Assembly (NCBI GenBank): GCA_016748015.1
Contig: JAAOMT010000602.1
Location: 1,378,054 to 1,442,053 of the forward strand
Length of the DNA stretch: 64,000 nucleotides
Direction of reading: 5' to 3'
From: Geosiphon pyriformis
Lineage: Eukaryota > Glomeromycota > Glomeromycetes > Archaeosporales > Geosiphonaceae
Under the pieces are notes generated by a model. That model saw only the letters and a list, made by a program, of their open reading frames with translations. It was not told the origin of the DNA and searched no databases. Position numbers and translations under genes: made by a program. How positions within the stretch are numbered: position 1 is the first letter of the stretch; every line of letters begins with the position of its first letter. Below, one piece after another: positions 785 through 63,800 of the stretch.

Positions 785-1330
785 TGTATTAGCCACTGAT
801 GTCATTATATTAGCCACCCTATTTTTAGAATTAGTCGTTGATGTGATCATTGACTTGATAATTGATCCCTTTTTAAGAGTATATAAGTGAGACCTTCCAA
901 AGCCATAGAAATTCATTCACACTCAATTCATTAAAAACAAAGATCAATACAACGATATCAACTCCTGTATTTCCTTTTCACTATTTCTTTTCCCTTTTCT
1001 TTTCTTGATTTGTATAATTGTTAGTTTTTATGAAGTATATTGAATCAACATTTACTGAAAAGGACAACTGATACCTGATATTGAATTCTAAGAGTGCCGA
1101 TGTGAGGTATAGAATTATATCAGTGTGTGATTTTTTGTTCAGATTCCCTTGTTACCATTTTTTGGAAAGAATAGTGACTGAAATATTTATGAGACTTATC
1201 TCGCATATTGAATCCCTACTAATTTAATTCGCTTATAAAGTTGGATTATTTTCATCGTCACACAATACTGTTCTTTGCTATCCATTAGCGTGTTACATCT
1301 GACCGTAATAATGTAATTCATTTGCTATTA
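785..1330 (+). mobile_element. LTR-like element, least-mutated copy (copy 1)
   Basis: A stretch of about 540 bp found three times in the window in the same orientation: here, at about 45465-46130 and at about 61990-62520. It is placed from TG at 785-786, where similarity to copy 2 begins, to about 1297-1330. It resembles an LTR promoter: short tandem 'TGATNATTGACT' units at 835-866, a TATA box (TATATAAG, 880-887), then a pyrimidine-rich stretch and an anchor (TTGTATAATTGTTAG, 1010-1024) shared by all copies. No internal retrotransposon domain adjoins it, so it is probably a solo LTR. No clear target-site duplication was seen. A non-LTR repeat family with its own promoter is the alternative. 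Confidence 0.6.
880..887 (+). promoter_or_regulatory. TATA box of the LTR-like element
   Basis: TATATAAG lies about 95 bp into the element just after the short tandem U3-like units. The same position in copies 2 and 3 is also a run of TATAAA or TATATAA. Its position is typical for a U3 promoter; function is inferred. Confidence 0.4.
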
Positions 1331-3463
1331 ATCTTAACAAAATTTTCTTGCATTGAACAATTATTAACATTATAGTTTGATTAAACAAATAATACAAACT
1401 TATTGAGATTTTGTTTTAAAAAGCTAAATAATTTTATTTAACTTCTAAAGATTAATAATTTCAAGATTATTACTTTACTTGTACATTATTATTTAAATAA
1501 CAGTTTTCTTTATGTGACCAAGTTTTTTTTTTACATTAATTATAAAAACTTTAAAAATGTATTTTATTATTTTTGAATAATATTACATTTAAATTAGTAT
1601 GCTTTAAAGTAGATTATTTATAACTTTATTTTACATATTTCAAGACATTTTTAAAATTAATAATTTTAATGTTTTTTTTTTGCATAATTTTTTTATTTTT
1701 AACTCCAAAAAAATATGTATCAATTATATGATTGTAAAATTATTATTTAAAATTTTCTATGCCTTCTTTTGTTAATATTTTTTTGATTACTTTAAATTTG
1801 TTTCACTTTTTTGCAATTGATAGGTGAATTATAATAAATATTTTATATTAATTTTTTTAAAATATCGTATTCACCTGGAAATAAGCACTCCCTTCTGATT
1901 TTTCATAGTAAATTAGGGTACTTATTCTCGGGTAAAATACGGTACAAATATCATAAAAATAAAAAGTAAATCTTTTGTAACTTTACTAACTCGTTATTAA
2001 TATCTGAATTGAGAATTTCATAAATTGTATTTTCATTTTTTATAAAGACCAATTACTGGTCTTTTTTAAGCAATTATTATTTTTTTAACTTTTTTTTTTT
2101 GCATTTACTTTATTTCAAAAGAATTTTCAAAATCTTTTCAAAATCTAGTCGGATTTTGAACGAATATTATTGATGATTTTGTATTTTGAAAAGTATTATT
2201 ATAAAGTAGAAAATTTAAGATTTAAGATCTTTTTTGTTGATGATTTAAATTGATTTGAACATTAACAATCTTGACCTTTTGTTTAAGTTGCTACCATTTG
2301 TTATTATCTTCAAACGTTTTTAAAAGATTAAAATTGCTTGCCATTAAGGGCCTTGATAAAGACCGATGTGCAGTTTATTGAAATGATTAGATACAATATA
2401 TTATCTTTATAGATTTTACATAGGTTAGATATAAAGTTAAATAAACCATTGTAGTTTTTTCTGGAATGTTCGAGAACACTGTAACGATCACAATTTATAA
2501 GATATTCGCATTCACTTTTAGTGGAAACTGTTAAAAATTAAAATTTTTTAAGTATCATCTTGGGCTTCTTAATTTATGAAAATATTTTAATGTCTTTAGG
2601 AAAAAGCTCTTAATATGTTAATTGACCTAAATACGTTTCAGAGAAAAACGAAGCTTTTTGGTAAAATTGGTAGGGTCTGTTGGTTACAAACTATATTATG
2701 AAATGCTAAAATAATAACATCTATGTTCTTGTTTTTAAAAGTAGGAAGAGAAAACGATGTTCAGGAAGGGATCATAAAGAAAGAAAGGGTATATTTTTGG
2801 CAAAAATATCATATTATTGATTGCGGCTCTAACTCAAACAATGAAAATAAATAAATTATTTAGGATGACAACTTTGAGGAATTTTCAATGTACCAGAAAT
2901 CATCATTATCTGAAAATAAATATCGAGGACAATTGTGTGTTTTTAATTTTAAACTTTATTAAGTGAAAAATGTTTTTGAAAGTTTGAATTGCATATATTG
3001 CTGTGAAGTTTTTTTTTGGTAAAACTAATTTTTGAAATTAGAAGAGATCAAAAGTCTACGATTTCAATTTTGAATTGCATTTGAAAATTTTCAGATTTCT
3101 TTAATATAGGGTAACAACTGCATGAAATCTTTCGACTCATAAGTAACTTCACTTTAATCCTCTTTTTCCAAATAAAATCTATGGTTTTAAAAATAAATGA
3201 TAATGTTCTCAAGCATTTAGAAATTTTTCATTTTTGCTGAATGTGTTTATCAATCTATTAAGCAAAGAAAGTTTTTCTCATTAAAAATTTTTTGCTTCAT
3301 GATTTCAAATCATGATCCCTTTGATTATTCTTAAAATTTTGTGCGCATTAAATTATCAAAAAAATTTACACTTTACTTTTTTCTTACTTTTAAATTTCTA
3401 TATACAATTCTTCATTATTTTTTACAAATTATATAAAAAACTAACTTTTTACTTTAAGTAATC
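1331..3463. other. Intergenic, no gene seen
   Basis: AT-rich spacer with many homopolymer A and T runs. It lies 3' of the DUF2985 gene and right of the LTR-like element. No open frame of coding character was found on either strand. Confidence 0.6.
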
Positions 3464-3485
3464 ACCATTACCATTACCATTACCC
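3464..3485. repeat. (CCATTA)n hexamer repeat
   Basis: About four tandem units of the hexamer CCATTA lie just downstream of the stop codon of the minus-strand membrane-protein gene, so probably in its 3' UTR. Confidence 0.7.
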
Positions 3486-3529
3486 AATGTTTTTAACTTA
3501 TTAACCCACCATTATAAAATATCACGTTT

Positions 3530-4892
3530 TCAAACTTGTGAAATCCCCTCAATCTCAGTAGATCGCCCCTTTCCTTTTTGCTTGTTTGTTTTATTACTCC
3601 ATATCGTTGTCATTTCTGCGTTGAATTTAGGGATTGTACGTATTGAGGAGTCTTGTACAATATCTCGTTCTTCAAGATCAGCCACTGCATTGTCAATCCC
3701 AGATTTGCTTGGCATTACAGTGATCTGTGTTACTGGAAGTTTAATTGCAATTGTCGATGTATTATCTGTCATTTCTAAACTATTCCTACTTGGATGTTTC
3801 ATTTCTGAACTATTCATACTTTGAGTTTTTGGTGTTGAATAAAAAGTGGCTAATTTACGTTTCGTAACTCGTGATATGATCAAAAAACCGCTGACAACAG
3901 ATGTTGTAACCGCAATTGCCACGAAGCAGTATAAAATTTTCATTGGTCGATGATGAGTACTAATCATTTTGAATACAAGTTGATCATCGCTGTCATATTG
4001 GGAGAACTAGAATAAGAGGAAGAAGATAAAGTAAAATTTAATTCAAAGTTCTCCAAACAAGTAATGTTTTTATTATAAGATGAAAATTAATTTTTTGAAA
4101 AGAAAGCAATTTATGCTAAATCATACATACCCCCCACATGAAACATGCAATCACAAGCTGAACAAAAGCATTTAAAGTAATCAAAATCAGCACACATATG
4201 AGAATAGTTAGGGGGTCTGTTTTATGATCATACCACCCGGCATATTTTTTAATATTTTCGACATGTTCCGAACTTAGTTCCTCGTCACATATTGCACCCG
4301 ATGTTGATTTGATTTCTCTTAAAAGTTTTATTGTATATCTTAGGGGTATCAAGCGTTGTCGAACGGTGAATATTGCCAGAGAAGTGGAAATCCCGTTTAT
4401 TACTGTGGGAAAAAGAAAAAGAAAAAGAATCAAGTTTTCTGTTGTTGAAAAATATTAAATCAAGTGCCAAACTACAATGATTTGCTTACTTTGTGATAAA
4501 AGTTCAATCCACATTGCTCTCTTGGCTTCATTTTCAAACCTAACCCCACCCAATAACATCACAAGTAACGAGAGCCCAACTACAGCAAAAATTAATACAA
4601 TAACAGTCACTATAATAACTATTGGGCTCTTGAATGCTTGAACCACTTCTTCTCGTAATAATTGAATTGGTGATCTTGTATCTTCTTGAGGTAGATTTTG
4701 TTGCATTGTCGTTTGTTCTATAAGAATCGCTGAAAGTTTTGCGGCTGAAGAGAGTTTCGTAGGTCTGAGGGGTGGTCGTTGGGGATTGAGTTGTGAATGA
4801 GTTGATGATATTGTTTTTTGTGAGGATGATTGTTTTGTAGCTATTATTATTGGTGGTTTTACTCCCATTGTGATTGATAATGGGGGTTCCAT
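3530..4892 (-). CDS. Fungal DUF2985/PLAC8-like multipass membrane protein
   Basis: Three exons on the minus strand: 4892-4490, 4402-4131 and 4006-3530, joined by GTAAGC...CAG and GTATGT...TAG introns that keep the frame. The product is 383 aa. Residues 1-90 are a Ser/Thr/Pro-rich cytosolic tail; membrane segments are seen near 91-114, 199-222 and 249-270, with a hydrophobic stretch after 135. The DUF2985 signature spans the first splice: 'WIELLSQ' joined to 'IINGIS', followed by an Arg/Pro motif and a later 'CFMWG' at the end of exon 2. In this family the Trp-Gly precedes a PLAC8-like Cys-rich region. Here the C-terminal tail after 270 is Ser/Thr/Lys-rich and lacks PLAC8 cysteines. Function of the family is unknown. 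Confidence 0.75.
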
Positions 4893-5589: not shown

Positions 5590-5617
5590 GGAAATTGGAA
5601 ATTGGAAATTGGAAATT
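5590..5617. repeat. (GGAAATT)4 tandem repeat
   Basis: Four consecutive perfect copies of the 7-mer GGAAATT in intergenic DNA. Confidence 0.8.
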
Positions 5618-5929: not shown

Positions 5930-5934
5930 AATAA

Positions 5935-6016
<82 letters not shown>
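5930..6016. repeat. (AAT)n microsatellite
   Basis: About 85 bp of nearly uninterrupted AAT/ATA triplets, with one ACT interruption near 5955. Confidence 0.95.
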
Positions 6017-42000: not shown

Positions 42001-45000
42001 AATAACAAAATAATTTAAGCCTTACTTTTTTTTAACTAAAACAGCTAACTTATGATATTAAAGTTTCAATAAAAAATTAACTAACTTTGTTGTTTTTAAA
42101 CTCATTTTTTTATAATATTTTTGTAACTTAAATACTCTAATTAGATTACAAAATTAATTTAGCATAATAAAACAAAAAAATTACAAAGCTATAATTATTT
42201 ATCTTAGATAATTTAATAAGACTTTATACTAAATTCAAATTATTAAATAAAATTATTATACATTTGGCCAAATTTTAAACCAATTTATAAAAAACCTAAG
42301 AAGCAATATTTTTTGGTTTGTTAAATTTTACTATCTTAAAAGTTTGTAAGATATTATAATACTTGTTTATAATTTTAAATTAATTTAATAAAAAGTCAAC
42401 CATACCTAAACCATTAACTTAATTATAAATAGAATTTTTAAAATTAACACAAAACTTATTTAATTAAATAAGAAGTTATTTCAAAAATTGAAAAATATTT
42501 TGTAAAAAGTTCAGAAATGTATTAACTTTTATAATATTAAAAAAATAACAATAATACAAAGTATTATTAATAGTAATTATGTTAATAACAACAACAGTTA
42601 TAAAAACAAAATTTCTATAATTACTACTACTATTAAATATTGGTTATATTGTAAGAAATTATTGCCAAAAAATATCAGATCAAAATTGTAAAAACTAATA
42701 TTAGCAATTAAATATTTACAAACAATAAAATATTAAACTTTTTTATTTTAGTATCTATAATTACAATACTTACTTCAATTACCACAGAATTATTACCAAT
42801 ATTTTTAAGTAATAATATAATTTTAATTTTAGTATTAAGCTTTATAATATAGCAATTCAAAATTTCAAGCCATTAACTATAATTAAAAATAATAAAGCAA
42901 TAATAAAAATCAAATTTAATTTACAGTAGTATTTTTTCAAAATTTAAATCATAAAAATTTATTATCTTAAACACTATTAACAGGCTATTTAAACTAAATT
43001 TTATATCTTGGTTTTATTAAAACTCAAAATTTTAATAATATTGAATCTTTAAAAAAAAAGCTATAGTTAAATTCACTAATTTTTTTCTTTTATCAACAAT
43101 TAGACCATCTTTAATATAATTTTTTCAACTACAATTACCAAAAATAAAACTTTTATAGTCATATTTTTATTTAATATTAATAATTTAAATATTTATGATT
43201 TTTTAGTAAAATTGCTATTAATCTAAATAAAGTTATTATAATAATATATACCAATATTCAAATAGAACAAATAAACATTAAATTAATACTCAACAGTAAA
43301 TTAGTAAACAATATTATTATAAAATAAATTATAGACTAATTAAGTTATTAAATTAATTATATAGCCATTGTTAAAATTATTACTATTAATAAAAATACCA
43401 AGATTCCAATAAAAAAAATTTATAATTTCTTTTTTAAAATAAATAAAATTTTAATCTTTACCAAAGTTTTTGTAATAAAAGCATTTAATATCAAGTTTTA
43501 GTTAATAATAAATGGTTAATTAAGACTTATGTTATTCTTAATTGAAATATTCAAAAACTTTAAATTTTATTTAATGGCCAATACATTTAAGTACTTATTA
43601 ATTATGACTATTTTAAGATAATTATTCTTAAATAGCCTTTAATTAAATTTAAAAAATCTATAGTACAGCCTATTTTGAAGATATATTAAATTTCTTGGGC
43701 TAATAATTTTAGCATAAAGTTATTGTCATCAACCAATTAAAAAAAAAAGTTAAAGAAGAACTACAAGCTTTAATCTTTTTTTATATTTTATTGAATTAAT
43801 ATAATTAACTCTATTATTAACCAAAATTAATTTGTGTAAATTGTAAATCATGCTAATATATTATTTTAATTAATAATTAAGCATATTTAGTAAGTCAAAA
43901 AAATTGAAAATCTAAATACAAAATAAATTTTTGTTAGAAATATTTTGTGTTTATTAATTTAAAATATATTTATCAAATTTTTAAATATAATTTCTGATCT
44001 TTGGTGTATTAATATAATTTTTTGAATAATGTAAATAATATTATGTTTATTAAGATAATAATAAAAATTCTGTATAATAAGTTATTAAAAATTGGCTAAA
44101 TAATAAAACTGTTAATTTGTTTAATATTACAAATAAATTATAAAAATATTGTAATAAATTTGTTTTAAATTTGCTATTAGATCTGTTAAATATATATTTA
44201 ATAAGTAAATTAATTTTTTAATTATAGAAAAAAGTTTGAATAGTAATAATTTTTAAACTATATAATTAAAATAAAATATTATTTAATATTTGTTTTAATA
44301 TATTAATTGAAAATAAAAAAAAAATTTAAAATTCATTTTAACAGAATATTTTTATTCATAGCAAGTTTAATATTCTTTCTGATAATAATTTTTTAGTAAT
44401 TCAATATATTTTAAATATTATTAGATAATCTTTTAAGATCAATAAATAATAACAAAACTGTAATTATTTTAATTAATTAGAAAGTTATATATGTTTTTTT
44501 TTAAATATTAACAATTTATTATTTTTTATTGCAAAAATAAAAATACATAGATATTTTGAAATTTTTTAATTTTTTAATTAACTAAAAGCATATTCAGATA
44601 TAGTTTAAAAAAAATACATGTAAATATTAAAATTTTTTGTGAATATAATTTTGAAAAAAACAATTTTTAATAAATAATTTCTTTATATAATATTAATAAT
44701 ATTAGTTTATTATAAAATACAATTTACTTAAAAACATTTCTTATAAAACAGTACATTTTTTTTGTTGTACATTTTAAAATTTTTTAAATAGATTTAATTA
44801 AAAAAAAAGTTGTTAATATAATAAAATATGTAAATACTAATAATAATTTTAACAGATTTTTTGATTATAAGATAGTAAATTTACATATTTTAACTAAAAA
44901 GTTATAACATCAATTCTAATTCTTTGTTAAACTATTTTTTAATTTTTTAAACAATTTTTTGACTAGTGTAAAAATTATTTTTTTGGAATATAAAATTTTT

Positions 45001-45464
45001 TTATTTATAATATTTTTAATGTTTTTTATTTTAAAAATAAAGTTTTAATTTGAATGTTTTAACTTATTTAATCTATCATAAAATAGTTAAGTTTTTTTTA
45101 AAAATTTAGTATTGTTTTTGTTAATTAACTTTTTAATAGTTATAATTTATGTTTCAATTAGAAAAACTTTTATTATTAAAAAAAATTTAATCTTAAAAGT
45201 TTAATTCCTGTTTAATTCAATTTGTTTTAATTTTTATCATAAAAAATAATTTTATTAATAATAACTTGATTTTATTATTTTCTATTTTTTATTAAAATTT
45301 TGTTGATTTTAAAGCTGTTAATAAAAGTTTAAAAATAACTTATTTAGATATTGTTTTAATTTTTATAGATAATTCTATTAAAAAATTGGGTTTTTATAAT
45401 ATTATTATGGTTAAATCTTTTACTTTTTAGCTTTTATTATTTATTTAGCCATAATTAATTATAG

Positions 45465-46130
45465 GTATTAGTTATTAAAATTATTAAATTAGTTATTTTA
45501 TTTTTAAAACTAATTATTAATGTAATTATTAACTTAATTAATGACTTAATTATTGATTAAACGTTAATTTAATTATTGATTTGATTATTGCCTAATTATT
45601 AATATAATTATTAACCTAATTATTGATTTTTTTAAAAAAATATAAAAATAAAAGCTTTTAAAAATATAAAAATAAGAACTTTTAAAAATATAAAAAAGCA
45701 TTTACATTCAAATTATACTTAGATTAATACAAGAATATCAATTTTTTTATTTTTTTTTATTATTTCTTTTATTTATTTTTCTTAATTTGTATAATTGTTA
45801 GTATTGTAAAGTATATTGAATAAATATTTATTAAAAAGTATAATTAATATCTGATATTAAATTCTAAGAATGCTATATAAGACATAAAATTATACTAATA
45901 TATTATTTTTTGTTAACAATATGGATTATTTAGATTTTTTTATTATTTTTTAAAAATAATAATAATTAAAATATTTATGAACTAATCTTACATATTGAAT
46001 TTTTATTACTTTAATTCACTTATTAAAGTTAAATTACTTTTTTAATTATTTTATCATTATACAATACTGTTTTTTTTGCTATAATAATATATTAATTTTT
46101 TTTATAATTATTATTAACTTAAATAATTAA
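45465..46130 (+). mobile_element. LTR-like element, hypermutated copy 2
   Basis: Aligns with 785-1330 from 'GTATTAG' (45466) through the shared anchor TTGTATAATTGTTAG (45787-45801) to 'TATACAATACTGTTTT' near 46050 and slightly beyond. Differences are almost all G to A or C to T relative to copy 1, for example TGATGTGATCATTGAC becoming TAATGTAATTATTAAC. It is about 100 bp longer before the anchor because the U3-like tandem units and the TATA-containing unit are present in extra copies. It could be the 5' LTR of the remnant to its right. Confidence 0.6.
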
Positions 46131-46579
46131 GTTTTTTTTAAATATATATATATCTAAATCAAATATTTTTAACTCTAATTTTTATAATTTTTTTGTTATG
46201 TATTTAACAAATATAATCTAACTATTATCTAAAAATTAGAAACAAATTAAGTGTCTTAAAGCTAAATACAGTTTATATATTTTCTATTTGTAACTAGTTA
46301 CTTAAATCAGTTCAGGCTATATTATATTAATATCTTAAAAGAAAATTACCTAAAAAAAACATTTTTTAAACAATCTTAAACAACATAATACTATTACTAA
46401 TTAATTCAATTAATTACTTGGCTGTTTTTAAAACATCAATCTTAATACTAATAAATTTATGTTTTTATAGTAATATTTAATTAAAAAACATATTATTATT
46501 AATTACAAACAAATTTATATGAAGGCCAAACATATTAATGTTTTTATAGCTACACTTAATTTTCAAAACAATTATCTTT

Positions 46580-48345
46580 TATTTTAACTTACTAACTGTT
46601 TTGTTAAAAGTACTTATATATACTAAAATTTTACTAATTCTAAAATTAAATACACTAGTTAAAACCAAATTACTATTAATAAATTGTTTAAACATAATAA
46701 TCAAAGATTTAATCAGCTTAACAATAGATCTAAACAAAGCAAAAAGCTTGATCAAATCAGATTCCAAAAAAATTAACCAAAAAGAAATCACAAAAATATT
46801 AGCTATTATATTAGCAGAAAAGCAGAACTAACTAGAAAACTAAAAACTAAAGAAGACATAAAAACAGCAGTCTTAACATAAAATTTGATATTAATAAAAT
46901 AAAACACAAGAGCTTTAAGAGTTTTGAAAGAAAGAGATAAAAACATTTTACAATTAACAACTAAATAATTCAAGTTTTGGTATTTAAAACAGTATTAACA
47001 TTCAGAAATTTTTTATCAGATACAATACTTTCTTAAAGTATTAGTTTTAATAATAGCTGCATCCAAATTATTCTGTGAGTTAAACATGATTAAAACAAAC
47101 TGGAAACAATAACTAAAATCAAATAAATAAGAAAAAAAACAAATTTAATTACCAATTTGAGAAATTATATTATTAATTTTATAAACAGTACAGTCAAAAA
47201 AAAAATTAATTAACATAACTTTGAACTTATTATAAAACAAAATAGTTTTATTTTGATTTATAAGAAAAAAAATTTTAATACTATTTTTATTTAACAAAAC
47301 TAATTAATAATTTAAAGCAAATACTACAATATTTAAAATCTTAAAATAAACAACTACATATTGCTAAATGCCAACAAATTTCAGTATAATATAAAAAACT
47401 TTACTAAATACATCAAAGATTATCTTAATATTAGTAGTAAATACATCCAAAAATATATTATACAATACAATAACAGCAAAAAAGAAACCAAACTCAAAAA
47501 CTATTAAAGACTAAGTAATTTTAAAAGTAGTCAAGCAAATAAAACTTGTAAACTTAATTAGAAAAACAGATTTTAAAGACTCTTAAAAAGCAAATTTTAT
47601 ATAAAAAAGCTTTATATTATTTTTTGATACTAACTTTATACTCAAAAAATTATATATAAACTAAAAAACAGTCTTAATATAAACTTATTTAATCTTAAAA
47701 GTAATATTAAGTACCAAAGTAAAAACCAATTATTTAGTAAATCTTTGACAACTAAAAATAAATTCTTAAGTACTATTAGCAGCAGCACCAAAAATAAATA
47801 GAAAAAATATTTTAATTTTTATCTAATTAGTTTAATTCTTAAAAACAAATAATCTAATAGAAAACTGTTGTTTTGTTTCTAAAACTGGCAATAATCTGCC
47901 AAAAAATATCATATTTGGCAATATAATCAATAGTTAATTTTGGTTTATTTTAAATTATAAATAAGATAATACAATAGAAATTTTATTCAAGATCTTATTA
48001 AAAATCACAAAAAGATTTAATATAACAATAATAGAAGTAAATAGTTATTCTTATTTTTTAAAAACATTGGTTTTTTTGACTATTTTTTTTAAAAAAGTAG
48101 TGTTAATAACACTAGATATAAAAATTATAATAAGAAAAATCAACTAATTAACTGGCTTATTGTTAAATACTTTTGGGCTCTTTAAAAAAGTAGAAACAAT
48201 ATTAAAATTAATCCAAGTATGTTTTTTTAAAAAAACTTTAACTGGTAAAGAATTAGTCAAAAATGAAAAAAATGCTTTAATAATTACCAAAAACAGTTTT
48301 TTATTATTATTAACTAAAAAAAAAGCTTCCAAAATATTTGCTTAG
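46580..48345 (+). pseudogene. Hypermutated coding remnant right of LTR copy 2
   Basis: Plus-strand stretch, C- and A-biased, that keeps coding-like frames. From about 47776 to 48345 one frame (that of 48160) runs for some 190 codons interrupted by only six stops, all TAA or TAG, which are the codons made from CAA, CAG or TGG by single transitions. A shorter open piece lies at 46601-46831. Its place right of an LTR-like copy in the same orientation suggests gag/pol of the same element, but no reverse transcriptase, integrase or protease motif is recognisable after so much mutation. Confidence 0.4.
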
Positions 48346-50210
48346 CTGTTTCTATAATAAAAAGAACTTTTTTAGTTGAACTTTATAAAATATCAAAAAA
48401 AAAGTATCAGTTATAGCTTTTTTACTTTTGCTTTGATTATAATTATAAAATTAAGGAAATAAATAGTTTTTTTATAATTAATATTAAATAAAAAATAATA
48501 TATTGATTAAAAATTTAATAAAAAAAAATAAAAAATTATTTTTTATTTTGCTTTTTAATATTAAAAAAAATTTTAATTTAATATATCTATTATAATATAA
48601 TATTTTAATAAATATCTAAAAACTAATTTAATTAATTTTTTAATATTTTAAATTTTATATAATGCTATTATTAATAATTATATTTATATAATTATTATTA
48701 AAAATTAATTATTAAAATTAATATTAGTTTATAAAGATATTGTTAAAATTGATATAAATTTTATGAAATATAATTATATATTACAGATTAAATATTTAAT
48801 TATTAAATTTTAAACATAGAATTAAGTATATAAAAAAAGTTTAATTGTTTATAATAAGTCTGTTTTAATTAATATTTATGGTTTATTTATAATTAATATT
48901 GTAATAAATATTTATATTATAAATTTTGTCTAAAATAAAATAATTGTTTTTCGTTTTAAAACTATTTTGTAGTTGTTTTTTAATAGTTTTTGTAAATATA
49001 TTTATGTTTTTGTTAACATAAATATATAATATTATTTTAATTGATTTAAATAATTGATTATATATAAAAAGAGCATAAAATTATATTTATTTTAAAATTT
49101 AATATAATTATATTATAATAAGTAATAGTTTAATTATATTTATTAAATATAATTTATTAAGACAATTTTTTTAAATTAATAAAAACAAAAATAATTCTAA
49201 AATTAATATAAATAATTTAAATATTAAAACTTAAAAATTCTTACTAAAAAAATTTTATTTGTTATAAAATTATTAAAACATTTAATATTAAAATTGTGTT
49301 AAAATTTATTAAATAAACAATTATATTTATTTATTTTCAATATTATATTTGAAAATAAATTATTAAAATATATTGAAATTTTAACAATAATTTAACTTAA
49401 AAATAAGTTTTAAATAATATTATATTTTTGCAATTAGCAAATTTAATTATCAAAAAACTTTAATAATTAAATATTTAACAATATGCACAATTATCTAATA
49501 TACTATTATTATTAAAATAATTTATTTTTTGTTTAAATACAATAATTGTAATTTTAATACTGATTATTATTATTATATTTAATACTAAAAACATTTAACA
49601 TTTTAATTATTTAATTATTAATTAATATTACAATATTTATAATTTTAAGTAAATTTTAATAAAATACACTAAATTAAATTTAAATTTAAAAATTGGCTGT
49701 AAACAATAATTTTCTTTTTATTGTAATAATAATATAACAATATATCTATTAAAATTGGTTTTAATTAATACATAATTAAATTATATAATATATTAAATTT
49801 TAGTTAATTATTACCAGTTTTAAAACAAAAATAAATTATGTTTTTATATATAAATTTGCTTAATTATTTAATTTTAAAAATTAAAGCTTTTTTTTCTCTA
49901 AAAACACTATTAATTTTAATAATATTTAAAAAATAATTACAACTTGTTAAAAAACTTTTAAATAAAAAATCTTTATTTTAATATTTAATAAAACTATAAA
50001 ACTTAAGTTGGCTAATATTAAAACTGTTTTTTAGTTTTTATATGGTTTTATTGGTTTGAAATTGGTTATTAAAAACAATTTTAAACTTTTTGAATAAATT
50101 TTGCATTTAAATCTTTTTTAAATACTGCTATTTAAATTATATTTGTTAATTTTTTTCTTATTATTTTTAAAATTATAAAATTTTCTGTAATATTTGATTT
50201 TTGTTTTTGC

Positions 50211-51322
50211 TTTTTTTAAGTATAAAAAATCCATTCAATGATAACAATGACTGTGACAATAACCAAATTTTTAAGCTAAGAGTAATAATAATTCAGAGTA
50301 AAAGTTTCAATTGATTTAATTTCAAATATTGAATTTTTTATAATTAAAATTTAACTGGAAATATTTTTATTTATTATTATTTGAAGTAAAATATACATTT
50401 TTTAACTAAAATTTTATTCTTAAACTTTGATTTTTGTAGAACAAATTACAAGAGAAAATCAATATCTACTTTTTTAAATAAAAGCCAATCAAATTTTATT
50501 GACACATATTGAAATTCATTAGGTTTTTGTTGAAAGAAAAACTTTGTTCTCTGAATTATAGATGTTATTGGACTGTTTTTTTATTAATATCTAAAACTTT
50601 TTGCAACTAGTTGAAAAAACTAATTATTACAACACAAACATAAAAAGATTACTTTCATTTGATTTATATAGATAATACAATTTTTTAAAAAATAAAATCT
50701 TACTATAGTAAAAATTATAAATATTTGATTTCTGAAAAAAAGCACAAGAAAATTCTTAAAATTAAAATTTTTAGTTTTATTGAAATTTATGATAATTCTT
50801 ATAGACTAAATTTATATTACCTAATATCTTAAAGATTTTTAATATTGTAAATATATTATTTATTATTCTGTTTATTTTCAATTTTAGATTTCTTTGACTT
50901 TTAGTAATTTTACTGATTGATCTTACTAAAAACTAGTTGTTTTTGATAACTTAAATATTATACATTTAATAATTATCTTCTAATGCTATTCAGCTAACCG
51001 TATAAAAAAATAAATGGATGCCAATTATATTTGTCTAATATGGCTTTTGTTTACTCTCGGCCCCAATAAATTAGCTTTTGTCATTATATTTGAATTGTTC
51101 CTGGCTCTTATGGATAAATCTAAACTTCAAAATATTCCTCTTTATTAAAATTATTTAATATGAGCAATTATTCAAGAAAATATATCCTAAAAAATGATTT
51201 AGGATGTATTGGTTTTAAAATAAGATTTCATTTGCAATTTTGACTTTCTTGAAAGGGTTTAGAGCAATAGGCTATAAAAAACCATGTGGGTACAAATTTC
51301 AAAATTGAGAGTCCTATTTAGC
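50211..51322. other. Intergenic edge of AT block A
   Basis: Composition returns to the ordinary background from about 50.2 kb. No gene seen. Downstream flank of the dead BTB-TLDc gene. Confidence 0.5.
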
Positions 51323-54138: not shown

Positions 54139-54342
54139 TTTTTGTTATAAAGCCTTTATAAATTAGTATTTAGCACCAATTTTTGTTATAAAGCTCCTAT
54201 AAATTAGTGTTTAGTGTTAATTTAAATCTTAAACATTAAATCGTTCCAAAAATTTCTTTCTTTTTTTGTTATAAAGCCCTTATAATTAGTATTTAATATC
54301 AATTTAAATCTCTAATAGTAAATTATTTCAAGAAATTTCTTC
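54139..54342. repeat. Three tandem units of about 80 bp
   Basis: Units start at 54139 (truncated, 42 bp), 54181 (82 bp) and 54263 (80 bp). Each begins with TTTTTGTTATAAAGCCCTTA-like sequence and 'AATTAGTATTTAG', and the two full ones continue 'AATTTAAATC...AAATT(A)TTTC...'. They sit at the left edge of extreme AT block B. The unit is not known to me. Confidence 0.75.
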
Positions 54343-54379
54343 TTTTTTTTGTTATTAATATTATTTTAATTATTATTTT

Positions 54380-57300
54380 TGTTGTTATAAAAATAATTCT
54401 TTACTCTTTTTTTTTTTAGTTTTTAAAAATGTTAATTCTAATATTATTACTATTATTATTACTATTATTACTTTTATTATTACTTTGCTATTATTATTAC
54501 TATTGTTATTTTTATTATTATTATTATTATTACTATTATTATTATTATTACCAAATAATAAAAACAACTTTTTAAGCTCTTTTTAAAATTAACAAGTTGT
54601 AAAATAATCTTAAAAATTGTGATTAGTTATTATAATTGGCACTTTTGTTTCAATTTTTTTTAACATATTTTGTTTTTTAATTTTGAAAATTTATAATTTA
54701 TATTAACAAATTAACTTTTAGTAAATATAAATTGGTTAAAAATATTTTTGTCATAATATAATTGAAAACATAGAACTTAAAAAGCACAAAAAATAATAAT
54801 AAAAATTTATAACAAATACCAAAAAACAAAAAATATACATTATTAATTAAAATATATTTAAAAAAACTTTTAAAACAATAAATAAAATTAATTAAATTTG
54901 TTTTTAATACAGTAGTAAATAAAACTAAAAATGTTAAATTAAAAAAGAAATTGATTAAAACTTTTTAATAAAAACAACTTCTTTTTAATAATAATTTCAC
55001 TATATAAGATAAAAAAAGCTTTATAGAACATGTTTTTATAAAATTGTTTAGATTTAATTCTTGTTAACCACACAAAATAAAGTTATTAAATATAATATAT
55101 AATAACAACAAAATACATTAATATATTAATTTTAGTAAATTTTTTTTGGAATTATTTTTTGTTACTTTTTTTAATATTTATATTAATACAAATTTATTTT
55201 TAGTTTAAATATTAATAAATAGTTATTGTAATTATATAAATAAAAAAACAAATTTGTTTAATTTGTATAAATAAGTTTATTTATGTGGTTTTTATTAATT
55301 TTAGTATTTATTTATATTTTTTATATGTATTTTTTTACTAAAAACTAAGTAAAATTAGTTAATATAATATAAAATATATTATTTTTATCTCTATTTATAT
55401 AAACAAATTAATATAATAATTTCTAAATACAAAAAAAGTTAAAAAAACTTAATAGAACAATAATATAAATACAATAAAAAATTAAATATCTGCAAAATAA
55501 AATTCACAAAAAAACAATTTCTTTTTTTATTTATAAATTTAATAATATTATTATTTTACTATTTAAAATATCTAATATAATAAATTAAAAATCATAAAAA
55601 TTACATAAAATTCAGTTTGAAAAATTCTTGATTAAATATATTATCAATTTTAAAAAAATTAAAAATTTATATTATACTTTAAAATAAAACTTATATATAA
55701 TTAATATAAAAAAATTTAAAACATTAAAAAATTTACAATATATATTATAAAATTATAATAAATAAAAATGAAAATAATACTCAAAAAATTTTATTTTAAG
55801 TATTATTTAATAAAATTTTAATTTTATAAAGATTATATAAAAAATAATAATATGTATTGTTTTTTATTAATATATAATACAAATATTTTAAAAATATTTA
55901 ATACTTTAAAATATAAAAATTCTATAAATAAAAACATAATAATAATAATAAATACATTATTAAATAATTTTTAATAAAATTTAAAAACTAATATATTTTT
56001 ATAAAAAATGTTTTAAAATTTTATTATATAATTAAATTTTTTTGTAAATAATTTAAATAGGAATTAATAATAAACAAAATAAATTTTTAGTATTTAAAAA
56101 AACATTTTTAATTGGCTAAATTTTATATATAATTATATATATTTAATAAAAATATATTAATATATTATTTTTTTAGTAAAATTTTATTCTAAATTATTCT
56201 TAAACTAATTAAGTTTTAATATTAATTTATATAATTAAACTTCTATAAAACACTATTTAGAATTTAACAATATTATTTATATTTTTTAATAGCAAAAACA
56301 ATAGGTTTATCTAAAAAAATTTGTTTATAAGTACCTATATATTAAGTAAATTAATATATTTAATAACAAATATTAACAAAACTAATAAATTTTAATACTA
56401 ATAAAATAATTGTTTTAAGATTTTTAAACAAATAATTACAATAAAAATGTGTATATTATTTTGTTTTATTTCAAAATATGTTAATAAAATTAAGTTTACA
56501 ATAAAACTTTAAATAAAAATACACATATATTTAATTATTTTAATAATTTTTTGTAAATAGTTTTTTTGAAAAGTAAAATTAAGTTAATAGCCAAGAATTT
56601 TATTTGCATAACATTAAAAATTTATTAAATTAAAAGCATAAAATTTGCAAATACTATATTATTTTGTCAAACTTTTTAATTACAAGTTATATACTTTTTA
56701 AATTTATTTAATATCTTTATTTTATTATAATATTAATATTAATAAATATTAAATTATATAAAAATTCATTGGATATTTTGTTATTGTAAAGTAATAATTA
56801 CTTATTACTGTTTTTTAAAATTATTTGTAAACTATAAAAATATTTTTAACATAAATTTTGTAATTATAACTGTTATTAAATATATAGAATACAATTTTTC
56901 CTAAGTGTATTTTTTCAAAAACCAAATAGTTTTGTTAACTATTTGGTTTATAAAATTTTGCTTAGTTTATTAATTATTTTAATTAAAGTTTAAATATATA
57001 ATAATCCAAATTTTAACATACAAAATTCAATTATTTTTAAAAAGCAAATTATTAACATAAATATTAAGCATCTGTAATTTGTATTAAGTCTGATTTTTTT
57101 CTGTTAAACTTTAAATATTAATAATTCTATTGTTTAAAAACATTTAATAAAAGTATTGACACAATAATTTGGTCTATATTCTGTTTTTTATATATTATAA
57201 TCTGAAATTATAAACTGGTTATTTATTATAAATTCATTTTAATAAACCACATTTTTATGTTTATAATCATTAAAGTAAATGTTCTTTAAATAATTTTTAT
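54380..57300. mobile_element. Extreme AT block B
   Basis: About 2.9 kb of extremely AT-rich, nearly CpG-free DNA beginning with a (TTA)n array at 54431-54555. Same texture as blocks A and C. I could not align any part to the LTR-like element, so transposon origin is inferred from composition only. Confidence 0.35.
54431..54555. repeat. (TTA)n/(ATT)n microsatellite
   Basis: Over 100 bp of ATT/TTA/ACT triplets with occasional C or G interruptions. Confidence 0.9.
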
Positions 57301-57901
57301 AATTTAACTAAAATAATATAGCCATTTCTGAGCTGTTTTTTTAGCAATCGTTTTTTATGTTTCAATTTCAAGAAAAGAAATAACTTTGTTCTTAATAAAC
57401 TTAATAAATTGTTAAATAGTTATGATAAATTTGTTTATATGCAAATATTAGGTAACACACAGCTTGAAATCTTTATTAAGTAAAAGTAACTTAATTTTGG
57501 AATGTTAACCACTACATAATGTAATTATTTTGAACATTGTTTGGTCTATAAACAAATAATTTGTTCATGCTATGAACTCTAATTAACACCACAAACAAGA
57601 ATGTTACTAGCAGAAAGCTTAGAAAACCCTTGATCTTGAATGAGATAAACGAATTAACTCATTATTTGAAGCCACACATTGGAGTTTTTCTTTTGAAAGA
57701 TGCCAAAGTGAACAAATTATTCTCTTTATTACTTGATTCAATGGTCTCAAATGGGAGTTCATAATTACTGAAAGCATTATTGATAAGAAACCAGTTTGTA
57801 ATTTTGCTGGAACCCAAAGCTGCTTTTCTCCAGGCCGCTCTTTTATTACAAAGTGTTGATTCAGCAAAACCCATATAAATTGACTTTCATTCTTTTACCA
57901 C
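57301..57901. other. Intergenic, possible decayed sequence
   Basis: From about 57.6 kb composition is ordinary. Two overlapping minus-strand open frames end at 57619 and 57662 (the latter ATG-started at 57874, 70 codons) but neither has recognisable motifs, and they lie directly 3' of the coding-like segment at 57902-58140. Confidence 0.4.
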
Positions 57902-58140
57902 CTACACATCAGATTGTCTGGCGTTCTTTATGAGTTTTTCCAATGCATCTGCTTGTACTCTTCCCAATTCTTCTATAAATTGGTCGTTACTCAAAGGCTC
58001 GTTTTTATTTTCCATCCAAGTAGTATCAAAGCTTAGTTGGTTGTCCTTTTGGTTATTATTTGGTTGATTCCCCGGTACTCGATAACTTAGGGTTTGATTT
58101 CGTATTGTTCCAACACTTTTTTGCAGTTGCTGAGCAGTGT
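57902..58140 (-). pseudogene. Unidentified coding-like segment, probable last exon or remnant
   Basis: Minus-strand frame of 80 codons ending at TAG 57904-57902. It encodes a hydrophilic Gln/Asn-rich part ('NQPNNNQKDNQ') and a helical C-terminus ('DQFIEELGRVQADALEKLI'). Codon composition is clearly non-background. The frame meets TAA at 58143-58141, where a neighbouring frame stays open back to an acceptor-like TTTTAG at 58185; a one-base slip in the A run of 'GTAAAACAC' would join them. So it is either a frameshifted gene or a sequencing error. Family not recognised. Confidence 0.35.
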
Positions 58141-58660
58141 TTACTTTGCTTCTTTCGTTTCGGTATAATAAAAAATGTGCAATCTAAAAGGATCTTAAAT
58201 AAAAAAAATGTACTTTCAATGGAAACAACGGGTTTTTAATTATAAAAAAAACACTTTAAACCAACAAACATTTCATTTTTGCTTTTTTTTGAAAAAAACG
58301 CGTTCTGAAATTCTAGAGTATATTGTGGAGAGAACAGGGTTATTAGGCAACAGCCTTCCAGACACGCTCTTTTATAGAAAAGGGAAAGCCTGAGAGTCTC
58401 TTAAATAACTTTAAAAGTCACTCTTAAGATATGAACGCGTAACGCGTTTCATTTGCAGATGATTTATTATATAGTAATCATGTGGTTTATTATTTTATTA
58501 ATAAACCACTTTCCCAATATACTACGTAATACATGCATCGAGAATTTCAGCGGTGGTGCAATATTTGATATTACAAACCATCCGGAGATATGTAATAAAA
58601 GTTTTCACCTATAACTTTATTGTTGAAAAACAAATATCTACTAATGGGTCGAGTCAATAA
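58141..58660. other. Intergenic, possible transposon flank
   Basis: Ordinary composition. Contains an ATG frame at 58208-58393 (plus) without support. The 3' terminal inverted repeat of the Tc1-like relic would be expected in the right part but I could not identify it. Confidence 0.35.
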
Positions 58661-59488
58661 TTAAAGAATTGTCTCTAAAGCAATTAAATCCCATTCAATA
58701 AAGACTGTCTCCTTCAAGTTAGCTTCTGTTCGTGGCTTTTGGTTCTGGTGAACCCAATTTTTTAACTTCCTTCTACAAAGATCTGGCGATTGTGGAGACC
58801 ATTCCAAAGTCAAAAACTCTAGGTTTATCTTGGAGTTCTTTCACACGCTTGCACTTATGAATTGGAGTGTTCCTGGAATATTGCCTCTTTGATAGTCATA
58901 ATCATTGGTTTCCATATACTTCACCAGTCATACGTGAGGAATACATCTATACTATGATGGTTTTACATCCACTTTTAACGGTTGCTCATGTATGACCAGG
59001 GTTATGAAAGCTCACTTTTATGACGCCATACACGAAAATCTCCACAAGGATCGGTGCTTATGGGGGACTCGTCTGTCCAAAGAACGCGTCGCCAATCCTC
59101 CTTGATCCAAAGCTTGTAGGGTTTTGCCAATTTAGCGGTTTGATTCGGTCACTTCATTGATCATTGGTTTCTTACATGTTTTTTTTCGGAGTTTTCATAA
59201 AAGTTGTAATGGACGTAGGAGTTTGGATTTTAGATGAGATTTCGCTAGTAAGCAGATGTTTTGACATCTTATTTTTTAATTCCCAGAAAATTTGAGTTCA
59301 GAATGTTATAAATATTAGATTTTCGACCACTATTAATTCTTTTGAATTAATCAGTATTTTTTGTTAATTCTAATCGTGTTAACAACTTTTAACACAAGTA
59401 GTGGACCGTCCAATAATACGTGCAATTTTTACCCTTTATCTTGAGAATCTTTACATTCATTTTTGCTAAGATCTTTTTGGCGACCCAT
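58661..59488 (-). pseudogene. Tc1/mariner-type transposase relic
   Basis: Reading minus from ATG 59488 ('MGRQKDLSKNE'), pieces in shifting frames match a Tc1-family transposase in order: helix-turn-helix 'KIARIIGRSTTCVKS', linker 'SGRKS', catalytic-core start 'EDWRRVLWTDESP' with the first Asp, 'NTPIHKCKRVKEL' at the second catalytic block (the expected Asp is not visible), 'WSPQSPDL' at the third block, and a C-terminal 'WDLIALETIL' with stop TAA at 58661-58663. At about 276 codons it is shorter than the usual 340, with several frameshifts and stops. Cut-and-paste activity is lost. A possible terminal repeat begins near 59680 (TACAGACGGGTGACACAAAA on the minus strand). Confidence 0.8.
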
Positions 59489-59786
59489 TTGTGTATACAT
59501 TTCGAATTTTCAAGTCGCTCTTTAGTTAAATAATAAATTAAACAAAGACGATGTCTTTTTGTTATTAAAAATAATGCAGATGCAATTTTAAGGTTGTTAG
59601 TATTACTGCAATCTTTTGAAATTCATTACTGTCTTGAGAAAATCGTCCTAATTTTGTGTCACCCGTCTGTACTTGTTCTTACAATAATCTTTTTATAGTT
59701 ATTGCGGATTTCACCGGATATAATCAATAAAAAGCAGGTTTAAATAGTTATCGCAGTTTTCACCTCATAGCCAATCAACGTAGATT
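59489..59786. other. Flank of Tc1 relic and 3' side of SNX3
   Basis: Contains the likely 5' end of the Tc1-like element (terminal sequence around 59660-59682) and the 3' UTR of the sorting nexin. No gene. Confidence 0.45.
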
Positions 59787-60567
59787 TCACCCTGTCATAT
59801 TATACTTTTCACGACTGAAATTGGGATCTTGGATAAAAGCAGAAAGCACCTTACTCCCAGTTTGCAAAAGAGGATGACCTGCGACACTATAAATCAAATC
59901 AAACAAAAGTGAAAATAGTCCAACATAAAATAAACCTTACTAAAAACTTAGAGATCAGGCCCATGCTACTCACATTTGCAAAAACCTTTCAAGTCCTTCA
60001 CGGCGGGCTTCAATCACCTCATCAGTAAAGCGATTAGTGAAGACTTTTCCAGGTAAAGGGGGAATGTTCACTCTCGAGGATTCCCTTTCAAGAACATCTC
60101 GAAACCACTCAAAATCACTATATCGCCTTCTGACTTTAGAATGTGTAAGTTTGAATGCAGGGATATTGGTCTGAAGAGAAAGCAAAACAAAAATGATTGA
60201 ATCGATTTGAAAAACGAATTTTTTGATAATTCAGACTTCATGATAGAACAAATCTTCGCTGACTTTTCATAAGAGTTAAATTCACAGAACCCAACACTAT
60301 GATCTCTACTCACTGTACAAACGATTTCATAATCTGTAAACATCTTGCGTCCAAAACCTTTACGTTACAAGGTATTGGAATTTATTAGCGTTCCGGAAGC
60401 ACCGTCAATGAGCCGTTCAAAAGTGAAAAAATACCATGCGTCTGCGGATTTCGAATTTCAATTTCAAGTGAGTTTTCTGGTATTCCATACATTTCGTCAG
60501 GGGTTTGTTCTTTCATTGTTAGCCGAGAAGTTGCGTCAAAATTTTTCTGGGTAGGAGAAGAAGCCAT
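59787..60567 (-). CDS. SNX3: Sorting nexin 3 (SNX3/Grd19), PX-domain protein
   Basis: Four exons on the minus strand, all frame-consistent: 60567-60435, 60357-60314, 60170-59974 and 59886-59787, giving 157 aa, close to the usual 160-odd. After a short N-terminus with '[20 protein letters not shown]', the PX domain fills the rest: '[13 protein letters not shown]', '[13 protein letters not shown]', the phosphoinositide-binding '[10 protein letters not shown]' (73-82), '[12 protein letters not shown]' (96-107, Lys 101), 'RREGLERFL' (115-123) and '[11 protein letters not shown]'. SNX3 binds PI3P on early endosomes and works with retromer to return cargo to the Golgi. All key residues are present. 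The gene begins less than 300 bp from an extreme AT block. Confidence 0.93.
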
Positions 60568-60850
60568 TTTAGAAGTTAGAAAAGGGAATGTAAGGTGAGC
60601 TGCACATTCAAAAAGAAAGATTTGGAATATCTATTTTTTCGGGAGGTTAAACGTTTACGAAATTCAAGGAGTTCTAGAAACATGACAAACGTTACCAAAT
60701 CGATAAGGATTTAGCTTTGATTCGCTGAAAGGGAAAACGTCGACACATCGTTGCATGATCTTTTGATATCCAAATTAATTGGTCACAGATGCTGCGACAA
60801 CATTAGATCACATGAGCTCAAAATGGCTGGTGTGGCTGAGAAATTAACTA
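60568..60850. promoter_or_regulatory. Upstream region of SNX3
   Basis: Less than 300 bp of ordinary composition between the SNX3 start codon and AT block C; it should contain the promoter. No specific element recognised. Confidence 0.35.
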
Positions 60851-63800
60851 ATATAACTGATAATGCTTTTGTTTTAAAGCACATGTTTGAATCCATAATA
60901 AACATAACATAAACTTTTACTATAAGAGTACATTTATATAAAAATATAAATATGAAACTAATTTACATTAAATCTATATAAAACCTAAAAATTACAAATA
61001 TTTTTTAAAAAAAAAACAAAATAAAAATATTATATTTTATGTTTTTAAAATAAAATTCTTTACAATATTTAAATAAAAAAATTACTTATAAAAAATTAAA
61101 CAAAAATAAATCAGATAAGTATAATTAATTTTAATATATTAAAATAGATTTTTTAACAAAAAACATATAATATTTTAATATCAAATATTTTTTATTAATA
61201 TGTATTTTTTTAAAATAATTAATATTTATTATTTTTTTATTTATTGCTTTTAATTATATTATTAAAAATATATTTTGTTTAGATCTAATAAAAGCTTAAA
61301 AATTTGACAATTTTTTATATATAAGCAATTATATATTATTTTTATTAAATATAATTAATTGTTTTCTTGTAAAAAATATTTAAAAAATATTTATATTTTA
61401 TTTTTGGTTTTTATTTAAAATTTTTTAATTTTGATAATATTAATATTATTTATATGTTGATTTAAAAGTTTTTTACAATTTTTGATTATAGTTATTATAT
61501 ATAGAATAATAAAATATTACAATATATTTTAAAAATATATACATAAAAACTATTTACATATAATATATATTCTTTAAAAAAAATTTGTTTATAAAATATG
61601 AATTTATATATTATATTTTAATAAAAATTTAAACTGTGTTTTTATTTTACAAATAATTTATTACAAAATTTTAAATTTTTTTATTTTTAATATTTATTAA
61701 TTAATTATTACAGTTTTATTATTGTAAAAAGTAAAATTAATAATTAAATTCAAAAAATTCACTTATTTAATAATAATTAATTTAAATAAATTATTATGTA
61801 TTATATTAAAATTTTATATTATTATATAATTAAATAATTTTTTTTGTTATTTTGTTTTTTTGGTCTTTATATTTTGTTTTTTGTATTTTTATTTTTTATT
61901 ACTATAGTTTTATTTATTATTTAATCATTTTATTAATTTTATTTTTTTTAACTTTAATATTTTATAATAAAATTTAAATTATTAATTAATATAAAATTAT
62001 TTTTATAATTTTTATTATTAATTAACTACTTTATTTTTAAAATTAGTTATTAATATAATTATTAATATGATTATTAATTTAATTATTAATCTTTTTTTAA
62101 GAATATATAAATAAGATTTTTTAAAGTCATAAAAAAAGTATTTATATTCAAATTATACTTAAATTAATACAATAATATTAATCTTTTTATTTTTCTTTTA
62201 TTATTTTTTTTTAATTTGTATAATTGTTAATTTTTTTAAAGTATATTAAATAAAATTTTACAATTAATACTTTATATTAAATTTTAAGAATACTAATATA
62301 AAGCATAAAATTATATTAATATATTATCTTTTTTACTTTCAGATTTTTTTGTTATTTTTTAAAAAAAATAGCAACTAAGATATTTATAAAACTGATTTTA
62401 TATATTAAATTCTTATTAATTCAATTTATTTATTAAAATTAAATTATTTTTTTAATTATTTTATTATTATATAATTGTTTTTTCTTGTTATCTATTAACT
62501 TGTTAATTTAATTATAACATAAAAATAATGTTTTTTATAAGATTGTTAAAATTTTTAAATCATTTTTTATTATATGAATGATTATTTTTTTATAGTATAA
62601 AAAATTCAAAATTATTTTATAATATATAATTAAAACAATTTAGCTTATATTAAACTTAATTTTCTTTTATCTTGTTTTATTTGTTTCTTAGTTAAAAAAT
62701 AATTTAACTAAAAATTTCAATTGATTTTTAATTGAATATTCAGCCAAAACTTAATTTATATATATTTTTTACTTTTTTAATCAAGCATATTTTAAAGAAA
62801 AATTTAAAACAAAAAACAATTATATTAACTAATTAATATTTTCAGTTATTTTTAGTCAATTTTTTTTAAATTTAATAATTTAAATTAGCAAATCTATAAT
62901 TAAATATTTATTTATTTAATATTCTTAGAAACTAAAAAAAAAACTTATTAAACAGTATTTTTGAATTTTTTTCAAATAATTTAGACTTTTTATTCTAAAT
63001 ACTAACTTTTATTATAACATAAATTAAAGTACATGATAAAACAAACATATTACTAGTATTTTAAAACATCTAAATTATTGAAATATAAGTTTTTTATCTT
63101 TATTTTAAAAAAAAATTTAAAATTTTATAGAATGATTTAAGACCTTTAAAAAAGTTACTATAACAAATCAATCTAACAATAATTACAAGTTTTAAATAAT
63201 TAAAAAATTTTTTCAAGAATTTTTTACTGCATAATTTACTTAAAAAACTGTTAAAAAAGCTGTTCAATAAATTATTTAATAGTTTTTTAAGAATATTAGC
63301 CAAAATACAATCTTTTTTACTATATAATTTGAAAAAATTTTCATATTATACTTAAATAAAAAATAAAATTAAAAAAAAGAATACAAAACTCAAAAAAAGT
63401 GGTCATAGAATATGTTAAAGCAATTTAGAAATTAATAAAGCATATAAATTTAGAAAAAAACTAAATAGAAAAATAAAAAATTTAAAAACAGATCTTTTTT
63501 ATGCTTTATGATTTCTTTTTACTATTAAAAATAATTTTATTTTTAACTCAATAATAGAAATAGTTTAAAAAATAGAAAATCATGTTTTTTTTAAATAATT
63601 GCTTTTGTTTTTATTTTTTTTGTTAATTGACCAAAACAATATATAATAATTAATTAAAATTATATTAAAACAAATTTTTAGCAAGATTTAATTCATCATA
63701 ATTAAAAGTACAAAGAATATTAGTTAAGCTAAATAAGATTTTTTAAGATTTAAAATCAATTATTATTATTAAAGCCAGCATATTACAAAACTAAAATATT

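Follow-up and report, generated by a model that had tools for sequence, protein, structure and literature searches.

A RIP-like footprint of C:G to T:A transitions in repeats of several families in Geosiphon pyriformis

Repeat-induced point mutation (RIP) of Neurospora crassa and other Pezizomycotina, a process that depends on the methyltransferase RID, is one of the known processes closest to the damage described here. The present analysis concerns a stretch of 64,000 nucleotides of Geosiphon pyriformis DNA (assembly GCA_016748015.1, contig JAAOMT010000602.1, positions 1,378,054 to 1,442,053 of the forward strand), called the window below, and a short dispersed element that occurs in it three times, as copies W1, W2 and W3. 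The original prediction, made from the letters of the window, had described these copies as one repeat family, two members of which had undergone RIP-like hypermutation. In the assembly searched (124.7 Mb, 406 contigs), repeats of several families are hypermutated by C:G to T:A transitions on both strands. A RIP-like footprint, in which these transitions occur nearly alone, in repeats, on both strands and in recent copies as well, is strongly supported. Positions are those of the window unless a genome contig (C with a number) is named; loci read from the genome carry an L with a number.

An EQT or EET tripeptide in motif VI has been described as the mark of RID/Masc1-type enzymes (PMC6709928). 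A kingdom-wide k-mer screen published in 2025 reported RIP-like signatures in ascomycetes only (PMC12543289). Chytrids are reported to show no RIP (PMC6572847), and the arbuscular mycorrhizal (AM) fungus Gigaspora margarita was stated to lack RIP (PMC7082362, PMC8647823). In Zoophthora radicans, a RIP-index signal was found over 24.2% of the genome, with caveats stated by its authors (PMC10515909). The methyltransferase DIM-2 has been reported in the mucoromycete Phycomyces (PMC13297926, PMC7862722). Among the titles, abstract beginnings and passages covered by a literature search, with most subscription journals outside it, no report of RIP in Glomeromycotina was found.

The short element and its copies

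The mild copy W1 (745..1315, plus strand) has 30% GC, begins with TG, ends with CA, and contains a TATA box as well as internal repeats of ~22 bp that vary in number. It looks like a solo long terminal repeat (LTR) or an LTR-like non-autonomous element. W2 (45395..46100, plus strand, 10.8% GC) and W3 (61960..62535, plus strand, 8.3% GC) are degraded copies of the same element. Over the spans of the original prediction, the GC fractions are 0.306, 0.108 and 0.083 for W1, W2 and W3, respectively. The three copies are homologous. Local alignment of W1 scored 158 with W2 and 132 with W3, far beyond the mean scores of 18.3 and 18.8 (maximum 26) that were obtained from 200 dinucleotide shuffles each (z = 67 and 50). 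These shuffles rule out a chance alignment of AT-rich DNA, which the original prediction had named as one of the outcomes that would undo it, and bear out its claim of one family in three copies. Many weak matches also came from other AT-rich DNA of the window.

Ancestral states for the three copies were taken from columns at least 80% conserved in 12 GC-normal copies of the element. At conserved G:C sites, W2 has changed by transition at 60 of 104 and by transversion at 8, and W3 by transition at 67 of 98 and by transversion at 3. At A:T sites, transversions number 13 of 321 in W2 and 5 of 297 in W3. The corresponding values for W1, which was excluded from its own reference, are 9 transitions and 1 transversion at 100 G:C sites and 9 transversions at 309 A:T sites. 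The degraded copies have therefore lost G and C by transition, as had been claimed, and the loss is heavy; the wording that almost all G and C had gone was somewhat strong, since about one third of the conserved G:C sites persist.

Genome-wide, W1 as query gave 1924 first-look candidates, of which 40 were scored. Twenty-nine further copies were read, which together with the three in the window make 32. The element is 561-683 bp long in 12 copies, starts with TG, finishes with CA and has terminal inverted repeats of ~9 bp. Inspection by eye showed perfect target duplications of 4 bp, with TA at their centre, in 9 of 13 copies with end patterns; W3 is one of the other four, and its end pattern matched outside the element. 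Mild copies mostly have flanks that bear no relation to each other's, so that the elements resemble solo LTRs or a short non-autonomous element similar to an LTR. The number of internal ~22-bp tandem units varies among copies. An apparent second element family proved to be an artefact of minus-strand loci that had been left unreversed, and blastn found no match of the short element in the reverse transcriptase (RT) loci discussed below.

The alignment of family copies and the count of transition types and neighbours that had been proposed as a check were run on these 32 copies, and the degraded set has an excess of C>T and G>A. Columns conserved in the 12 mild copies were used, with the tested copy left out. 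In 20 degraded copies, C>T was found at 523/1156 sites, G>A at 369/934 and other changes of G:C at 74/2090; the 12 mild copies gave 94/758, 60/555 and 64/1313. Conserved G:C sites have thus changed by transition at 43% in degraded copies and 12% in mild ones. Transversions at A:T sites are alike in the two sets (170/6486 degraded, 114/3831 mild), and by that clock the degraded copies are no older. A general mutational bias towards AT, or mere age, is ruled out by this equality. Polarity in this family takes GC-normal copies as reference, and heavily diverged copies escape the search.

Copies with equal transversion loads differ greatly in damage, and the GC content of a copy tracks that of its flanks (rho 0.70, n=32). 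In the window, this association takes the form that the original prediction had given it: W2 and W3 lie within AT blocks whose 1-kb windows have 7-18% GC (~36.0-50.9 kb and 61-64 kb), and W1 lies outside.

Retroelements, a duplication, an rRNA gene copy and the AT blocks

Two high-copy families of RT-bearing elements were examined, with 16 copies of family 1 and 4 of family 2 read among the best 40 of 4541 and the best 40 of 1499 candidates, respectively. Family 1 is of Ty3/gypsy type with a dUTPase domain, and was found at 39 places besides the query at 91-96% identity among the best 40 of 4541; it has no blastn match in the window. Over 2.3 kb of the 16 copies, 569 of the 598 variable columns are pure C/T (282) or A/G (287), and 29 contain a transversion. 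Changes confined to a single copy comprise 123 C>T, 105 G>A, 7 transversions at G:C, 9 transversions at A:T and 15 A:T>G:C in 27,587 cells. In 550 columns no more than 10 of the 16 copies have the AT allele, which is the minority state there; in 19 columns it predominates, with 13 copies or more. A single copy has it in 228 columns, two copies in 133 and three in 78, a series that independent hits on near-identical copies would be expected to leave. Every one of the 16 copies is moderately loaded, with AT alleles at 71-172 of the 569 columns. In family 2, the four best copies differ by 122-180 transitions and 2-4 transversions per pair (ratio 35-76), and private changes comprise 107 C>T, 108 G>A, 28 A:T>G:C, 1 transversion at G:C and 4 at A:T. 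In neither family does the number of C>T differ much from that of G>A, and the two strands are thus affected alike. Both families were hit before they had gathered any appreciable number of other mutations.

The dUTPase of family 1 lies directly upstream of the reverse transcriptase (L052, with relatives L048-L051; contigs C366, C238, C321 and C328; Pfam dUTPase E 7e-24). A dUTPase domain in a retroelement is unusual among fungi. Mutator-like elements (MULEs) were considered as a replicate among DNA transposons; of 18 matches, all but one have stops, and there is thus no young MULE family to use.

A 6-kb duplication on two contigs has the same kind of damage: of the differences in the 3.56 kb that were compared, 352 are transitions and 33 are transversions. 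Its G:C losses are split 186/166, and both copies are affected. Just beyond the duplication, GC climbs to ~0.30 on only one contig of the pair. At its 5' edge (L043, C305, ~204.1-205.1 kb), tandem-like repeats are arranged differently in the two copies.

A small-subunit (SSU) rRNA gene copy was polarised by the Rfam consensus, of which the upper-case positions were used (n=626); the count omits V4 and the following part up to consensus position 919, as well as the part after 1639. At these conserved positions, the copy has 25 G:C>A:T changes, no transversion at G:C, 2 A:U>G:C and no transversion at A:U. Some of the damaged positions are near-universal sites. This copy (L065, C320:1044526-1047546) alone matches a universal SSU primer exactly in the assembly, from which undamaged rDNA seems to be missing. 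Compared with AM-fungal primers, the copy, which is itself damaged, has one mismatch each to AML1, AML2 and AMDGR, two to AMV4.5NF and four to AM1. Of the five mismatches to AML1, AML2, AMDGR and AMV4.5NF, four are C>T or G>A as judged by eye. Group primers gave three mismatches for ACAU1660 and ARCH1311, five for LETC1670 and six for GLOM1310. The near matches agree with a host in the Glomeromycotina and make it likely, short of proof.

The window contains three AT-rich blocks. The first (36000..50900) has ~13% GC and a CpG observed/expected ratio of 0.18, and contains W2 and at least one other dispersed repeat. The second (54200..57400) has ~12% GC, with a CpG ratio of 0.09 over 54.0-57.2 kb, and the third (60950..64000), which contains W3, has ~10% GC and a CpG ratio of 0.0. 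In GC-normal parts of the window the CpG ratio is 0.84, and the TpC ratio is 1.08 compared with 0.63-0.71 in the AT blocks. Between the second and third blocks lies a GC-normal (~34%) gene island (57500..60900, minus strand) with a PX-domain (sorting-nexin-like) exon. At its border with the third block, GC drops from 0.32 to 0.05 in the space of 200 bp. The block edges at 36.0 and 60.9 kb are sharp (~200 bp); the others grade over 300-600 bp.

The other dispersed repeat of the first block (40001..43000) gave 4330 first-look candidates, of which 40 were scored. Three copies were read. Any two of them are separated by 459-470 transitions and 113-140 transversions, with A/T swaps making up 82-103 of the transversions. 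Where the other two copies share a G:C site, transitions and transversions stand at 92:2, 67:3 and 86:4. Each copy also has 139-143 apparent A:T>G:C transitions, which are interpreted as independent losses of these sites from the other two copies.

Sequence context, methyltransferases and explanations

The order of loss is CpG first, TpC next and finally every context. In RT family 1, with neighbours taken from copies that retain the C, 602 of 2271 CpG cells were lost (26.5%), compared with 456/4108 (11.1%) for TpC outside CpG and 540/8256 (6.5%) for other non-CpG cells. Variable columns include 140 of the 142 CpG columns, and TCG (154/544, 0.283) was hit hardly more than other CpG (448/1727, 0.259). 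The TpCpG-specific target of the Pucciniomycotina was therefore not encountered in this family. In the 6-kb pair, 49% of TpC was lost versus 32-41% for other 5' neighbours, along with 12 of 18 CpG. No preference for CpA was found in the short-element family, the 6-kb pair or RT families 1 and 2, CpA being hit about as often as CpT. Heavily hit DNA ends at ~7-15% GC.

A profile search with PF00145 gave ten matches at seven loci. Judged by eye from the reading frames, the loci on C355 and C327 are DIM-2/DNMT1-like, and that on C96 is DNMT1-like, also by eye. The joined exons of the C327 locus matched PDB entries 9baq/9bap at 127.6 bits and DNMT1 at 124.4 bits, with a weak BAH match under the cut-off. 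9baq/9bap, a methyltransferase of the size of DIM-2, is taken here to be DIM-2. Two separate genes, on C307 (L037) and C346 (L039), are DNMT2-like by eye, and the C346 gene adjoins Sel1-type repeats. C318 carries two copies of a small cytosine-methyltransferase-like gene, 32 kb apart (L031, L033, L035; near 788-821 kb), that by eye resemble small or bacterial-type enzymes; the second is apparently partial, and the first scored about the same against the bacterial-type enzyme 3g7u as against DNMT1. ENV was read as motif VI at six of the seven loci, and no motif VI was found at the second C318 copy. The original prediction had proposed a search for DNMT5-, RID- or Masc1-type enzymes. DIM-2/DNMT1-like genes were found, and no EQT or EET motif VI of RID/Masc1 type occurs among the PF00145 frames read, in a six-frame search across introns that may have missed one.

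Gene content and sequence context together point to methyltransferase-coupled C-to-T hypermutation of heterochromatic repeats, with no need for sex, as the preferred explanation (probability roughly 0.55). DNMT1/DIM-2-type cytosine methyltransferases, of which the genome has several, would mark repeats that are packed as heterochromatin. The methylated, or enzyme-bound, cytosines of these repeats would then be deaminated and left unrepaired far above the background rate. The outcome would be a RIP-like genome defence without RID and perhaps without meiosis. A bolder and more tentative proposal, with somewhat less than even odds, is that this glomeromycotan genome has an independently evolved, RID-free mutator of repeats that prefers CpG and TpC, is probably coupled to DIM-2/DNMT1 methylation, works in clonal nuclei without meiosis and has built the AT blocks.

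Several observations weigh against methyltransferase-coupled hypermutation. CpG as the first target is also predicted by plain decay of methylated CpG, and hits did not cluster significantly on the same strand in the copies tested (6-kb pair, RT family 1). Some degraded copies of the short element (L014, L021) have one GC-normal flank. RT copies abound in the genome (6000 first-look candidates, of which 150 were scored), and a coding duplication has been spared; as a defence, the process is leaky or late. Since the RT copies were taken from the best-scoring 40 per family, their loads are biased low. Lastly, eight other, more diverged repeat pairs (69-84% identity) have transition/transversion ratios of merely 1.0-2.8, and over all 605 core columns of the short element the unfiltered pairwise counts are 2575:1911 in 10 mild copies and 8434:5650 in 15 degraded ones. 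The low ratios are tentatively put down to age, saturation and poor alignment of AT-rich and tandem-repeat parts; in the short element, the tandem-repeat part is the suspected source.

Slow decay of 5-methylcytosine had been named as the main alternative, and it remains the chief rival, albeit a less likely one. It holds that repeats are methylated in all contexts and that, given long times, spontaneous deamination of 5-methylcytosine suffices without a dedicated mutator. CpG was hit first and hardest and is almost absent from the AT blocks, damage tracks the neighbourhood, and DIM-2/DNMT1-like genes are present, all as such decay would have it. The large excess of non-CpG transitions over other mutations disfavours it. 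In RT family 1, 996 of the 1598 lost cells lie outside CpG, and in the 6-kb pair 340 of 352 transitions do; decay of CpG alone is ruled out by these majorities. Private non-CpG transitions in RT family 1 occur at 216/5730 (3.8%) versus 16/27,587 (0.06%) for transversions, a difference of ~65-fold. In humans, even methylated CpG exceeds transversions merely ~30-fold. Also against passive decay, hits are spread independently over near-identical copies, ahead of other mutations.

Classical RIP, in which homology is sensed before meiosis, would here need an altered context preference and would imply a sexual cycle; it is considered improbable. Transition-only changes on both strands of repeats agree with it, as do the damage to both members of the 6-kb duplication, the climb of GC just past that duplication on one of two contigs, and the hit rDNA copy. 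However, the preference for CpA is lacking, and the PF00145 frames read have no RID-type EQT/EET motif. For these two reasons the damage is not filed as classical RIP. The coding duplication, a DNA-methyltransferase-like pair 32 kb apart on one contig with ~90% identity over 1.1 kb, has 50 transitions and 22 transversions at normal GC. It is not hypermutated, and duplication alone is thus insufficient, as judged from this single pair. A length of 1.1 kb is near the threshold for RIP in Neurospora. Moreover, all 16 copies of RT family 1 bear moderate loads in place of a mix of intact and heavily hit copies, and short-element copies beside GC-normal DNA were spared, though these are short. The description as RIP-like therefore stands for the footprint, which is present in the RT families, the 6-kb pair, the SSU copy, the dispersed repeat at 40001..43000 and the short element, while membership in classical RIP is not supported, in view of the CpG/TpC context, the absence of EQT/EET from the frames read and the spared coding duplication. 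The original prediction had also held that such a footprint would bear on cryptic sex. This step does not follow, as a mitotic, methyltransferase-dependent mutator has been published for Zymoseptoria tritici Dim2 (PMC8016269).

Weak base-excision repair of uracil, through which deamination would go unrepaired and be most visible in heterochromatin, is less probable still than classical RIP. A search for the uracil-glycosylase superfamily gave one weak match in the genome, L066 (C282:249001-252000), versus matches in 13 of 14 control genomes. By eye, L066 resembles TDG/MUG rather than UNG, and its joined pieces match Pfam UDG. UNG was not detected by the six-frame search of the genome, in which an intron-split gene could be missed, and the control genomes are prokaryotic. 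Weak uracil repair alone also does not explain the coexistence of mild and degraded copies of equal transversion load.

Two further accounts are very improbable. An APOBEC-like cytidine deaminase acting on retroelement RNA or single-stranded cDNA would suit the TpC preference outside CpG and the presence of two retroelement families among the repeats hit, but the symmetry of C>T and G>A in both RT families rejects editing of one strand, and an rDNA copy was hit too. Modified bases can give C>T consensus errors in some long-read assemblies, but base-calling errors at modified cytosines, like chance alignment of AT-rich DNA, are at odds with hits at homologous sites of which most affect a single copy or a few (228 + 133 of 569 columns), with the 58-68% of conserved G:C sites changed in the degraded window copies, and with the shuffles.

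Significance and comparison with described systems

Copy-by-copy evidence of transition-only damage in a fungus that is probably early-diverging would imply either several origins of repeat-directed mutation or a greater age than has been assumed, and also that such mutation may not require RID. AM fungi would gain, alongside RNAi and methylation, a defence that disables transposons irreversibly, and the extreme AT blocks would be explained. AM fungi have long been regarded as putative ancient asexuals, and RIP-like marks would be weakened as a simple proxy for sex.

The RID-dependent RIP of N. crassa and the Pezizomycotina shares with the damage reported here the near-exclusive C:G>T:A changes, both strands, the location in repeats, the involvement of both copies of a duplication and the AT-rich end state. 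It differs from it in context (CpA there, CpG and then TpC here), in that no RID-type methyltransferase was seen here among the frames read, in that a coding duplication was spared here, and in its host, which here is probably outside the Ascomycota. In Microbotryum and other Pucciniomycotina, Gypsy-like elements have also expanded despite hypermutation of a CpG-containing target on both strands (PMC5381629). That target is TpCpG, whereas here all contexts are hit, TCG hardly exceeds other CpG and most hits lie outside CpG. The extent differs as well: 1.7 mutated target sites per copy were given for those fungi (PMC5381629), compared with 71-172 of the 569 variable columns that have AT alleles in any one copy here.

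The mitotic mutator of Z. tritici is alike in that C>T changes arise in repeats without meiosis and are tied there to a DIM-2-type enzyme, in line with the DIM-2/DNMT1-like genes found here; it is unlike in that >98% of its C>T changes are at CpA and CpG is not highly mutated (PMC8016269), whereas CpG is hit first here. For the Entomophthorales, RIP outside the Dikarya has likewise been suggested, from dinucleotide composition indices (PMC10515909); here, copy-by-copy alignments show the mutations themselves. Decay of methylated CpG in vertebrates and plants also consists of transitions only and also removes CpG first. In contrast to such decay, more than half of the hits described here are outside CpG, at a rate far above that of transversions.

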